Source: a virus
Virus record (IMG/VR): IMGVR_UViG_3300009285_001773
Span: 1-56,178 of that record
DNA: 56,178 bases
Direction: 5' to 3' (one strand)
A program made the translations under genes and the position numbers. Below are positions 5,931 to 9,792 of this stretch, piece by piece. The first letter of the stretch is position 1. The number at the start of each line of letters is the position of its first letter. The notes beneath the pieces were generated by a model. The model made no database searches and was not told the origin of the DNA. It worked only from the letters and a program-made list of their open reading frames with translations.

Positions 5931-6554
5931 ATGTCGAAATATATTATATATGCGCTTCAAGATCCGCTTACCGGGGAAATACGATATGTCGGGAAAAGTT
6001 CTACTGGTGTAGCAAGAGTTGCAAGACCGCATGCTGCACATTGTAGAGCATGGAAAGAAAGACTGAAGAGATTTGGAATCTCTCCGATTGTAATTATATT
6101 ACAAAGATTTTATAAAACCGACGATACCGATATAAATGTGATATTGAACGGTTGTGAAATTTATTGGATATCGGAGATGCGGTTGCGTGGTTGCCCTTTG
6201 ACGAACTTGACGAGCGGCGGCGACGGATCGCCGAATCTGGATTCAAGTGTTCGTTTGTCCATGTCACGCAAAAGAACTGGTAGAAAACACTCTGCTGAGA
6301 CCAGACTTAAAATGTCAATTTCTCATCTAGGAAAAAAACATAACTGGAATTTGTCAGGAGACGATCACTGGACAAGAAGAAAACCGGAAAGATTGGCAAG
6401 GAAAATACCAATTGATGTCGTTCAGGAAATATGTCGAAAATATTTAATGGGTGGAATTACGCAACGACAGATTGCTTCGGTATATGGAGTTAATCATAGA
6501 AGTATCGGAAGCCTGCTTAAACGATATTCCCCGCAGGTGCAGGTGCCGTCTTGA
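5931..6554 (+). CDS. GIY-YIG homing endonuclease
   Basis: 207 residues, strikingly AT-rich against its neighbours. The GIY-YIG fold is seen as YIIYAL (4-9) and IRYVGKS (17-23), an Arg/His stretch near 30-37, the catalytic Glu in NGCEIYW (Glu76) and NLTSGGDG (92-99). A NUMOD3-like DNA-binding segment follows (RTGRKHSAETRLKMS, near 115-130), and a helix-turn-helix ends the protein (QRQIASVYGVNHRSIGSLL). Such proteins nick or cut cognate alleles lacking the insert. No strong ribosome-binding site is visible. Its last residues appear to be borrowed from the gene it invaded. Confidence 0.9.
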   Translation: MSKYIIYALQDPLTGEIRYVGKSSTGVARVARPHAAHCRAWKERLKRFGISPIVIILQRFYKTDDTDINVILNGCEIYWISEMRLRGCPLTNLTSGGDGSPNLDSSVRLSMSRKRTGRKHSAETRLKMSISHLGKKHNWNLSGDDHWTRRKPERLARKIPIDVVQEICRKYLMGGITQRQIASVYGVNHRSIGSLLKRYSPQVQVPS

Positions 6555-7307: not shown

Positions 7308-7709
7308 ATGAGCGAGCTTGCCCAGCGCATCGCCAAGGTGGACCGCGAACGGAAGTCGGAGTCCATGCCGGTCGAGGAGCGCAACGCTCTGCGCAAGACC
7401 CGCGAGGAGGCGAAGGCGGCGGGGGCGACTCTGGCGACCGACGGGGAGGGAGGGATCCCCGCTTCGCAAGCCTTGGGGGTTTTCAGGCGATGTGAGTGGA
7501 AATGCATGAGATGCTCTGGACAGAAAAACCTGTCGCTGCACCACAAGGCCCACCTCGATAATCCGTCGAAGAAGATGAGGCGGCTTGGTCGCCGTGTCGA
7601 GAAGGACGACCCAAGGGGACTCGTGGCGATTTGCGAAGATTGCCACGACTCGATCCACAATGCCGACCGTGCGAACGTCGAGGGCAACGATGCCAGCGCT
7701 GAAGAATGA
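7308..7709 (+). CDS. HNH nuclease-like protein
   Basis: 133 residues. A basic helical N-terminus leads into a compact HNH/zinc-finger core: CMRC (66-69), LSLHHKAH (76-82, with the catalytic-type His pair 78-79), and AICEDCHDSIH (107-117). CxxC plus CxxCH with a distal His is the usual beta-beta-alpha metal fold. HNH proteins beside terminase genes can assist packaging cleavage; alternatively this is a free-standing homing enzyme. ATG 7308 has the weak leader GAGGGAAAT. Confidence 0.75.
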   Translation: MSELAQRIAKVDRERKSESMPVEERNALRKTREEAKAAGATLATDGEGGIPASQALGVFRRCEWKCMRCSGQKNLSLHHKAHLDNPSKKMRRLGRRVEKDDPRGLVAICEDCHDSIHNADRANVEGNDASAEE

Positions 7710-7875: not shown

Positions 7876-9792
7876 GTGCCGCCGACCCGCGCACTCCTGC
7901 TCTACCGCGAGTTGCTGGGCGAGCACCGGACCCGCCTCGACCGGCTGATCGATCGTCGCGGTAGAGCCCGCATGAAGCGCATGTATGAGCAGGCAGAGGC
8001 AGACCTGCTTAAGAAGCTCGCCGCGCAGGCCGGATCGCGCGGGGCGACGTTCACCGCGCACACGCACAGGCTGATGCTGGCCCAGATCCGCCAGGGCCAG
8101 GCGATGATTGCTCGGCGCATGGCGGGCGAGTTGGGCGACCTGACGAAAGAGGCGCAGGTCGAGAGCTTGCGCGGGCTCGGGCGGCAGGTCACGAAGCTGG
8201 AGAATGCGTTTACGGGCGTGACCACGGTTCTGCCCATCGAGGAGGCGGCGACGTTCCAGGGGATCATCCGCGGGAGGTCCACGTCGCTGATGCGGCGGCA
8301 CGAGATCAGCATGGCGCGCTACGGTGCGCGCCTCGTCGGCAAGATGGAGGGGGAACTGTCGCAGTCGCTCATGCAGGGCGAGACGATGCACGACGCCATC
8401 GGGAGGATCGAGGAGGTCACCGGCAAGGAGTGGTGGCAGGCGGAAAGGATTGTGAGGACCGAGTGTTTACCCGGGGATACTCTCGTTTCGGGGGCGATGG
8501 TGCGGGCAGCTCACAGACGGTGGTATGAGGGTGCAATGGTTGAAATCGTCACCCAGCGTGGCCGCTCGCTCTCCGCAACCCCGAATCACCCAATGCTGAC
8601 GAGGCGCGGATGGGTTGGCGCGGGTCTGTTGCGCGAGGATGATGATCTGATCTGCTACATCAGGGACAAGAACACGAGTTCGACGAGAAATGAAGATGTA
8701 ACAGACGGACCATCCTCGATTGCTGAGATATTTAATGCGGTTGCAGCAATAGGGGTCACTAAGAGGAGAAGAGGACGAAACCCAGATTTCCACGGCGATG
8801 GGCGAGACAGCGACGTCGATGTTGCATGCGCCGACAGGATGTTGCCTGTCGGGAGTTTCTCCCCTCTCGACAAGCCATCGATACAGCGATTCTTCTCCCC
8901 ACCCCACTCTGTGACATCGAGTTGCTGCGACAGATGCGGAAAGTTGCTCGGCGTCGCGCAGCGCGGCAGCCTGCGCGACAGTGCGTTTAGGTACATGCGC
9001 GTCGTTCAATCGAGCGTGGATCAATTTGTCGCTTACGCCGAGGCGTTTTGCAATGCGGCTCACGGGCTCGCCGCTTCGGTATTGTTCGATAATCTGCTCT
9101 GCTTGGATATGCCACTTGAACCTGGGGTGAGTTTTTCTCAATGCAAATGCTGCACTCTGGGATCTTGCAACTCCAGCACGCTGGACGGCGCGTTGTACGA
9201 GATGTTTGCCGACATGCACGAGTGCAGCGACCTCCCCGGCGCTAAGCCCAGTGAGATAGAGGTTGATCGCATTGTTCGCATCGAAATCAGTGATTTTCGA
9301 GGGCATGTTTACAATCTTACCACGCCGGACGGGTACTTTGCAATAAGCGATGCAATAACCGGAAACACGGCGATGGCATACAGCGCAACGTCGGCCGACG
9401 GTATCGCGGCCATCTCGGACAGCGTCGGCGGGATGTGGATGCGCTGGACCGAGTTCGTGAGCGACAGCACCGGCGAGGGGCTGGACGACCGGGTGGGCAT
9501 TGACAGCGAGGCGATGCACGGGCAGGTTGCGCCGCCGGGCGGGAAGTTCACGCAGCCGCCGACCTCAAAGTCGGGCGGAATCGTCAAGGGGAAGATTGTC
9601 GGGGAGGAGTTCGAGTTTCCGCCGAACCGCCCCAACGACAGATCGGTGCTTGCTCCATTTCGTCCGGAGTGGGGCGTGCCCGGGTGGCAGTGGGTCGGCG
9701 GGCGGCGGGTGCCCGTGAAGAAGATACCGGACGCGGGCGAGTTCGGCGGCGGGGCGTCTGCGCTGGCCGAGGCCGCGCAAGGAGGCATGTGA
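7876..9792 (+). CDS. MuF-like head morphogenesis protein interrupted by an intein
   Basis: 638 residues as translated. Residues 1-196 and 498-638 together form a MuF/SPP1 gp7-like minor head protein: helical N-terminus, then the junction RIVRTE-TAMAYS matching the conserved RTE motif of this family. Residues 197-497 are an intein that should splice out, leaving a protein of about 337 residues. MuF proteins sit near the portal and are usually few per particle. GTG 7876 is the start. The stop overlaps the next gene (TGATG). Confidence 0.82.
   Translation: MPPTRALLLYRELLGEHRTRLDRLIDRRGRARMKRMYEQAEADLLKKLAAQAGSRGATFTAHTHRLMLAQIRQGQAMIARRMAGELGDLTKEAQVESLRGLGRQVTKLENAFTGVTTVLPIEEAATFQGIIRGRSTSLMRRHEISMARYGARLVGKMEGELSQSLMQGETMHDAIGRIEEVTGKEWWQAERIVRTECLPGDTLVSGAMVRAAHRRWYEGAMVEIVTQRGRSLSATPNHPMLTRRGWVGAGLLREDDDLICYIRDKNTSSTRNEDVTDGPSSIAEIFNAVAAIGVTKRRRGRNPDFHGDGRDSDVDVACADRMLPVGSFSPLDKPSIQRFFSPPHSVTSSCCDRCGKLLGVAQRGSLRDSAFRYMRVVQSSVDQFVAYAEAFCNAAHGLAASVLFDNLLCLDMPLEPGVSFSQCKCCTLGSCNSSTLDGALYEMFADMHECSDLPGAKPSEIEVDRIVRIEISDFRGHVYNLTTPDGYFAISDAITGNTAMAYSATSADGIAAISDSVGGMWMRWTEFVSDSTGEGLDDRVGIDSEAMHGQVAPPGGKFTQPPTSKSGGIVKGKIVGEEFEFPPNRPNDRSVLAPFRPEWGVPGWQWVGGRRVPVKKIPDAGEFGGGASALAEAAQGGM
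8467..9306 (-). CDS. Vsr-like (EDxHD-type) homing endonuclease encoded antisense inside the intein
   Basis: 279 residues from ATG 9306, wholly inside the intein DNA on the opposite strand. Two helix-turn-helix segments occur near residues 12-45 and 66-105 (RSGEPVSRIAKRLGVSDK is typical of phage homing enzymes). A Vsr/EDxHD-like nuclease domain follows at 134-207: GWGEESLYRWLVERG (Glu138), VGACNIDVAV (Asp164), IAVEIW (Glu173), then RIKYLSNRGW. The usual GG-x-WH histidine block is replaced by VSSSSPL, so activity may be weakened. A promoter (9314-9343) precedes the start by 7 bases. The stop abuts the first intein codon. It must share codons with the intein. Confidence 0.8.
   Translation of the reverse strand: MPSKITDFDANNAINLYLTGLSAGEVAALVHVGKHLVQRAVQRAGVARSQSAAFALRKTHPRFKWHIQAEQIIEQYRSGEPVSRIAKRLGVSDKLIHARLNDAHVPKRTVAQAAALRDAEQLSASVAATRCHRVGWGEESLYRWLVERGETPDRQHPVGACNIDVAVSPIAVEIWVSSSSPLSDPYCCNRIKYLSNRGWSVCYIFISRRTRVLVPDVADQIIILAQQTRANPSAPRQHWVIRGCGERAATLGDDFNHCTLIPPSVSCPHHRPRNESIPG
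9314..9343 (-). promoter_or_regulatory. Promoter for the antisense endonuclease gene (leaderless)
   Basis: On the minus strand, -35 TTGCAA (9343-9338), an 18-base spacer and -10 TAAGAT (9319-9314) are followed by exactly 7 bases and then ATG 9306. Transcription would start at or next to the start codon. No Shine-Dalgarno sequence is seen. The same 7-base geometry occurs elsewhere in the window. Confidence 0.6.

Follow-up and report, generated by a model that had tools for sequence, protein, structure and literature searches.

A probable mobile intein in a phage MuF-like gene, with a putative homing endonuclease encoded on the opposite strand

Our analysis makes it very likely that a phage MuF-like gene in the virus record IMGVR_UViG_3300009285_001773 (IMG/VR) is interrupted by a mobile intein whose homing endonuclease (HEN) is encoded antisense within the same DNA, its expression, splicing and cleavage being inferred. 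The window referred to throughout is the whole stretch of DNA analysed, 56,178 nucleotides. In the scheme we propose, sense translation would yield a MuF precursor, from which a splicing domain formed by the intein ends (about residues 1-67 and 261-301) would remove the insert, the intein middle serving in sense as an open linker only. Transcription of the opposite strand would yield a separate protein with two helix-turn-helix (HTH) DNA-binding domains and a Vsr/EDxHD-like nuclease, which would cleave MuF alleles devoid of the intein, close to the conserved insertion site; repair from the intein-bearing copy would then spread the element. Antisense transcription, splicing, cleavage and the cleavage target are all inferences from sequence alone. 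The features concerned are the following.

7876-8463, + strand: N-extein of the MuF-like minor head protein, ending in the conserved IVRTE (ORF; phrog matches; alignment of the intein-less relative L104 through RTE)
8464-9366, + strand: intein, 301 aa (Pfam Intein_splicing; family matches; fold search)
8464-8643, both strands: about 60 codons under dual purifying selection, intein N-terminal blocks and HEN C-terminus (15 pairs pooled)
8467-9306, - strand: antisense HEN ORF, 279 aa, codon-in-register (homologues; alignments; AF2 pLDDT 86)
8554-8895, - strand: Vsr/EDxHD-like nuclease domain, HEN residues 138-251 (conservation in alignments A1 and A2; Pfam; PDB 3hrl and 3r3p)
8893-8895, 8815-8817, 8788-8790 and 8737-8739, - strand: codons of HEN residues E138, D164, E173 and R190, respectively
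8767-8778, - strand: SSSS, HEN residues 177-180, in place of the GGxWH, with its His, of most relatives (family alignment)
9001-9102, - strand: second HTH, HEN residues 69-102 (Pfam HTH_23; AF2 helices 69-77, 82-89 and 93-102)
9175-9279, - strand: first HTH, HEN residues 10-44 (AF2 helices 10-18, 23-30 and 34-44)
9304-9306, - strand: HEN start ATG, complement of the block-F His codon CAT (sequence; family comparison)
9314-9319, - strand: place of the family Shine-Dalgarno GGAGGT, a weak TAAGAT in the window (family comparison)
9367-9792, + strand: MuF-like C-extein (ORF; collinear with intein-less L104)

The MuF-like ORF (7876-9792, + strand) comprises 638 codons, and the intein occupies its residues 197-497, from the Cys at 8464 to the Asn at 9366. 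The sequence hallmarks of a cis-splicing intein of the Cys1/Asn class are all in place: Cys at position 1, block B TPNHP (TxxH), block F GHVYNL, and a C-terminal TGN ending in Asn301, followed by Thr at +1; the penultimate residue is Gly, not His. Pfam Intein_splicing matched the window sense protein (E=6e-7) and the sense proteins of 34/38 relatives, and no endonuclease family was found by Pfam in the sense frame, either in the window or in any of 38 family members. The in-frame endonuclease that would define a canonical mobile intein is thus missing in these 38 members, the nuclease being antisense. Confidence in the AF2 model of the sense intein is largely limited to the two ends, 1-67 and 261-301 (pLDDT about 79-98), with pLDDT below 50 over most of the middle and most of residues 125-260 predicted disordered. 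Nearly all of the listed PDB fold matches were inteins (best E about 0.006), and the predicted ends and the fold search together satisfy the criterion for a HINT fold.

Empty alleles exist. An IMG/VR contig, L104, carries an intein-less relative of the window MuF (N-extein 42% identical) that reads GEWWQGERIVRTE followed directly by MNFAYN (that is, IVRTE/MNFAYN), and because this allele aligns across that point the intein can be placed directly after RTE. Intein-less homologues with collinear exteins were found both for the window (L104) and for the Jerseyvirus members of the family (Salmonella phage S142). The host gene itself is identified by phrog matches to minor head and head morphogenesis proteins over N-extein residues 148-196 and, in relatives, by Pfam Phage_Mu_F. 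PHROG 15127 ("head protein") also matches the window, at 8464-8850, and is matched by 49/49 precursors tested, including one dCMP deaminase-like gene; since this profile matches through the intein, annotation by it misleads, and we set it aside as evidence for MuF.

The antisense ORF and the intein share one codon register, in which sense position 1 pairs with antisense position 3 and each triplet serves as a codon on either strand; the antisense ORF ends in a TAA stop that lies opposite the TTA of intein codon 2. The antisense product is predicted to combine a nuclease fold with DNA-binding units. AF2 predicted two HTH units and an alpha-beta nuclease domain, Pfam HTH_23 matched residues 71-93 (E=4e-6), phrog_664 matched the protein at 1.5e-8, and a sequence profile matched the endonuclease-like 3hrl (E=9e-7), which was also among the best PDB fold matches. 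The top fold match of the nuclease domain was I-Bth0305I (3r3p; Foldseek probability 1.00, E 0.015), the Foldseek E-values being modest. Taken alone, the window nuclease domain gave no Pfam match and was recognized by the family profile only; family members matched MTES_1575 (33/43) or DUF559 (10/43), in addition to HTH families. Profiles, AF2 and fold search together meet the criterion for a Vsr/DUF559 PD-(D/E)xK-like nuclease fold. In alignment A1, E138 is nearly invariant and N162, D164, E173 and R190 are invariant; with respect to the E...D...xH...D pattern, the window retains E138 and D164, lacks the His, and has no assignment for the last D.

Translation signals ahead of the antisense start are conserved in the family, in the form GGAGGTTGTANACATG. 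The block-F Leu is encoded by CTC in 47/55 loci, against about 15 (14.9) expected from the usage of the same genes, and the CTC so maintained supplies the GAG of GGAGG on the opposite strand. In the window the Leu codon is CTT, which gives TAAGAT and hence a poor ribosome site. A consensus promoter scan for a -35/-10 pair ahead of the antisense ATG found 0, with 0.6 expected.

An earlier sequence-only reading had assigned the intein to 8464-9366 and the antisense ORF to 8467-9306, with no endonuclease in the intein's own frame, an antisense stop at the first intein codons, and a minus-strand protein made up of two HTH segments and a Vsr-like EDxHD-type nuclease; each of these points held. Its proposal that one DNA segment encodes a splicing element on one strand and its mobility enzyme on the other is supported, activity remaining inferred. 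Its -35/-10 pair 7 bases before the ATG failed the promoter scan, and what the family conserves there is the Shine-Dalgarno GGAGG. The altered His block it pointed out is real as an observation, and its interpretation as decay is not proven.

Both frames are open and conserved across a wide family. A tblastn search of phage genomes with the antisense protein returned 49 records, 40 of them matched over >=80% of its length, in which the antisense frame lay within annotated head/MuF or hypothetical genes; the annotated hosts were Gordonia, Klebsiella, Vibrio, Haemophilus/Aggregatibacter, Pseudomonas, Salmonella, Cronobacter and Mycobacterium. None of the 19 phage records fetched annotates anything over the intein except the sense gene. 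Our first comparison, of 20 loci (these 19 records and one IMG/VR contig), found both frames kept in 20/20. A search of IMG/VR for close relatives with the single HEN as query found none, whereas the 20-member antisense alignment recovered relatives in 379 contigs, and we retained the 80 best. Although these 80 loci were chosen by the antisense protein alone, without selection on the sense frame, the in-register sense frame was open across the match in 80/80, mostly with recognizable intein motifs; the antisense frame contained a stop in 11/80. Conversely, four loci chosen by the sense protein alone (L018-L021) all had the antisense ORF at the same place. The association between the two frames therefore holds in both directions.

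The sequence-only reading would have been refuted by an absence of homologues of the minus-strand protein, of which many were found, or by relatives keeping the intein without the antisense frame; the 100 related loci all keep a long antisense frame, with the 11/80 IMG/VR interruptions noted above. A split intein or fractured gene was also considered and rejected, the sense frame being continuous in the window and across the match in 80/80 loci; the two separate host-gene/intein ORFs that define a fractured gene were not seen. Nor was the criterion for a ShiLan-type arrangement met (a same-strand alternate frame without splicing domain), the nuclease lying here on the opposite strand and a splicing domain being present.

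The both-strand synonymous/non-synonymous analysis that the earlier reading had proposed as a check was run, and purifying selection on the antisense frame was found. The third codon position is the fastest to change in ordinary genes. The same holds for sense position 3 in the exteins and the intein ends, whereas between 0.2 and 0.9 of the HEN length the fastest-evolving position is sense position 1, that is, antisense position 3. When substitutions were scored by their effect on both strands and pooled over 15 disjoint pairs, antisense dNN/dNS was 0.11 (0.09-0.13) in the HEN core versus 0.76 (0.63-0.95) in the exteins, and sense dNS/dSS was 0.78, near neutral, in the HEN core versus 0.18 in the exteins; the pair formed by the window and its nearest relative, locus L001, alone gave an antisense dNN/dNS of 0.08 in the core. 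Both strands are under constraint over the first ~60 codons of the intein, with an antisense dNN/dNS of 0.22 and a sense dNN/dSN of 0.13 (sense dN/dS 0.13-0.25 over the first 60 codons). Furthermore, HEN Leu and Ser codons that would cause sense stops were observed 0 times against 349 expected from the codon usage of the exteins of the same genes, a result that is partly built in for the phage loci, with their annotated sense ORFs, but not for the 80 viral loci. The antisense ORF is thus neither an artefact nor a coding shadow, and selection acts on the antisense frame, the sense middle following the antisense and not the reverse.

The element is present in some phages and absent from near-identical ones. 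The Jerseyvirus pair compared (L020, 772-2631, and L103, 301-1344) has nearly identical MuF genes: between Salmonella phages S142 (empty) and sidste (intein-bearing) the MuF exteins differ at only 55 positions, all within nucleotides 608-819 (~210 bp), with the insertion at 729. This tract is the footprint expected of homing with short co-conversion, ordinary phage recombination remaining possible; the pair offers a good natural system for the study of homing. Between sidste and an E. coli phage the exteins differ by about 25% and the inteins by about 3%, and two Klebsiella phages differ by ~12% in the exteins and ~2% in the intein. Querying with the sidste MuF matched 391 phage records, 58 of them with >=80% coverage, and many of the partial matches consisted of the two extein pieces only. 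Most MuF genes of the family carry the intein at N/CRC, a site other than that of the window, and family members also occur at two different sites in dCMP deaminase genes (L008, 616-1968, by Pfam; L081, 2198-3553, by sequence), which indicates transfer of the element between host genes that are unrelated.

Two other nuclease genes lie near the intein-bearing gene. A free-standing GIY-YIG homing endonuclease gene (5931-6554, + strand; YIIYALQDPLTGEIRYVGKS; NUMOD3 1e-4; phrog_314 1e-12) is located between a portal-like gene and MuF, and an HNH endonuclease gene (7308-7709, + strand; phrog_740 3.4e-6; Pfam HNH E=0.005, below the family cut-off) lies directly upstream of MuF. It is conceivable that these represent other mobile nucleases acting instead of the antisense HEN.

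Among the alternative explanations, the one that survives best applies to the window copy alone and does not conflict with our explanation for the family: the nuclease would be dead or dying and the intein inherited vertically or mobilized in trans. We lean against it. In its favour, the window block reads WVSSSSPL where GGxWH is common in the family, the Shine-Dalgarno is degraded, and the GIY-YIG (5931-6554) and HNH (7308-7709) genes lie upstream. Against it, the window ORF is intact, E138, D164, E173 and R190 are kept, and the window-L001 dNN/dNS is 0.08; moreover, the Jerseyvirus HENs (L020/L021), which also lack this His, look recently mobile. By a loose count a nearby His is present in about 35/41 members and absent from about 6/41, so the altered block, a minority family state found in recently mobile-looking lineages, is no proof of decay. 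Lacking the nearby active-site His and with a poor Shine-Dalgarno, the window copy may be weakened; outright decay of its nuclease is the less probable case and has not been shown.

A second alternative, which we judge very unlikely, is that the element spreads by general homologous recombination only and that the antisense protein does something else, such as regulation. Phages recombine freely and HTH domains could regulate, but the family has conserved a nuclease fold and nuclease residues, intein-bearing and intein-less alleles of otherwise near-identical genes diverge in a tract centred on the insertion site, and the family occupies several insertion sites as well as dCMP deaminase genes. 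Less likely still is a third alternative, in which the antisense endonuclease is the sole functional gene and the sense frame an open, non-splicing insert comparable to the ShiLan domain. The near-neutral and predicted disordered sense middle speaks for it; against it, blocks A, B, F and G are present and constrained (sense dN/dS 0.13-0.25 over the first 60 codons), Intein_splicing is matched in 34/38, the ends fold as inteins, and the sense frame is broken in 0/80 loci where the HEN is broken in 11. The last, that GC-rich sense coding left the antisense frame open by chance, as in-register antisense frames tend to stay open, and that its homology is a sense shadow, draws on the GC of 0.62 here and on other long antisense frames, both within the window and in MuF genes of GC-rich phages, but can be all but discarded given the codon-position flip and antisense dN/dS of 0.11 that refute it, the low-GC phages (gene GC 0.45-0.51) in which a long antisense frame occurs in the intein stretch only, and an antisense product with matches to HTH and nuclease families and a confidently predicted fold, while most of the sense middle has a pLDDT <50.

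The mobile intein with an antisense HEN that we favour resembles several known systems and matches none of them. Like canonical mobile inteins (Nintein-LAGLIDADG or HNH-Cintein), it has splicing blocks, a conserved host-gene site and a presence/absence polymorphism, and an endonuclease domain is situated between block B and block F; unlike them, its nuclease is antisense, belongs to another family and is encoded as an independent protein, with a start and a Shine-Dalgarno of its own. It shares a related nuclease family, the phage setting and the intein association with the fractured genes that have Vsr/EDxHD homing endonucleases, in which the nuclease gene reportedly stands free between two split-intein genes (Dassa et al. 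2009, 10.1093/nar/gkp095; cited in PMC12350094), whereas here the sense reading is unbroken and a single stretch of DNA is coding on either strand. I-Bth0305I (PDB 3r3p), the top fold match, and the EDxHD group I intron enzymes are intron-encoded, not intein-encoded, and, in contrast to I-Bth0305I, the protein of the window is without the usual His and has a pair of HTH domains. In the ShiLan domain, a hidden out-of-frame HNH for which no Shine-Dalgarno was found (PMC11855218), the host-gene frame likewise stays open while a second frame encodes an endonuclease, but that HNH is on the same strand and has no splicing domain, in contrast to the opposite-strand nuclease and splicing domain of the window. 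Antisense HEN genes are known in nuclear group I introns (PMC9548176), and there too the homing endonuclease lies opposite the strand of the splicing element; RNA introns, however, need no open sense frame, whereas here both strands code.

The earlier reading's claim of novelty is uncertain. The literature searched contained no paper that directly reports an antisense HEN in an intein, but a preprint outside that search (Gosselin, Arsenault & Gogarten 2025, 10.1101/2025.01.02.630785), which concerns actinobacteriophage inteins with "non-canonical architecture" and which PMC11855218 cites on the subject of overlapping reading frames in these phages, may partly anticipate the finding, and the Gordonia phages of the HEN family may be included in it. 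A bolder reading, which we consider as likely to be wrong as right, is that these elements form a large undescribed class of phage inteins with an antisense in-register HEN, in which the block-F His codon doubles as the start, sense codon choice is tuned to yield an antisense Shine-Dalgarno and ~60 codons are dual-constrained; nuclease expression would then be uncoupled from late head-gene expression.

Within the family described here, antisense dual coding recurs with measurable two-strand selection, a question usually argued from single examples, and an intein would have a second way to carry its mobility enzyme, opposite-strand expression separating nuclease timing from late head-protein synthesis. 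The intact sense frame in 80/80 loci, with a nuclease frame that is sometimes broken, provides a natural signature of the homing cycle. The family also adds a class of phage nuclease genes missed by annotation in the records examined, and the sense middle, which looks like a dispensable linker, suggests probable split points for protein engineering. Finally, the HEN of locus L001 (3004-4017, - strand) is extended at its N-terminus by ~57 aa, which may form one more HTH-like unit, and the number of DNA-binding repeats in the HEN family may accordingly vary.
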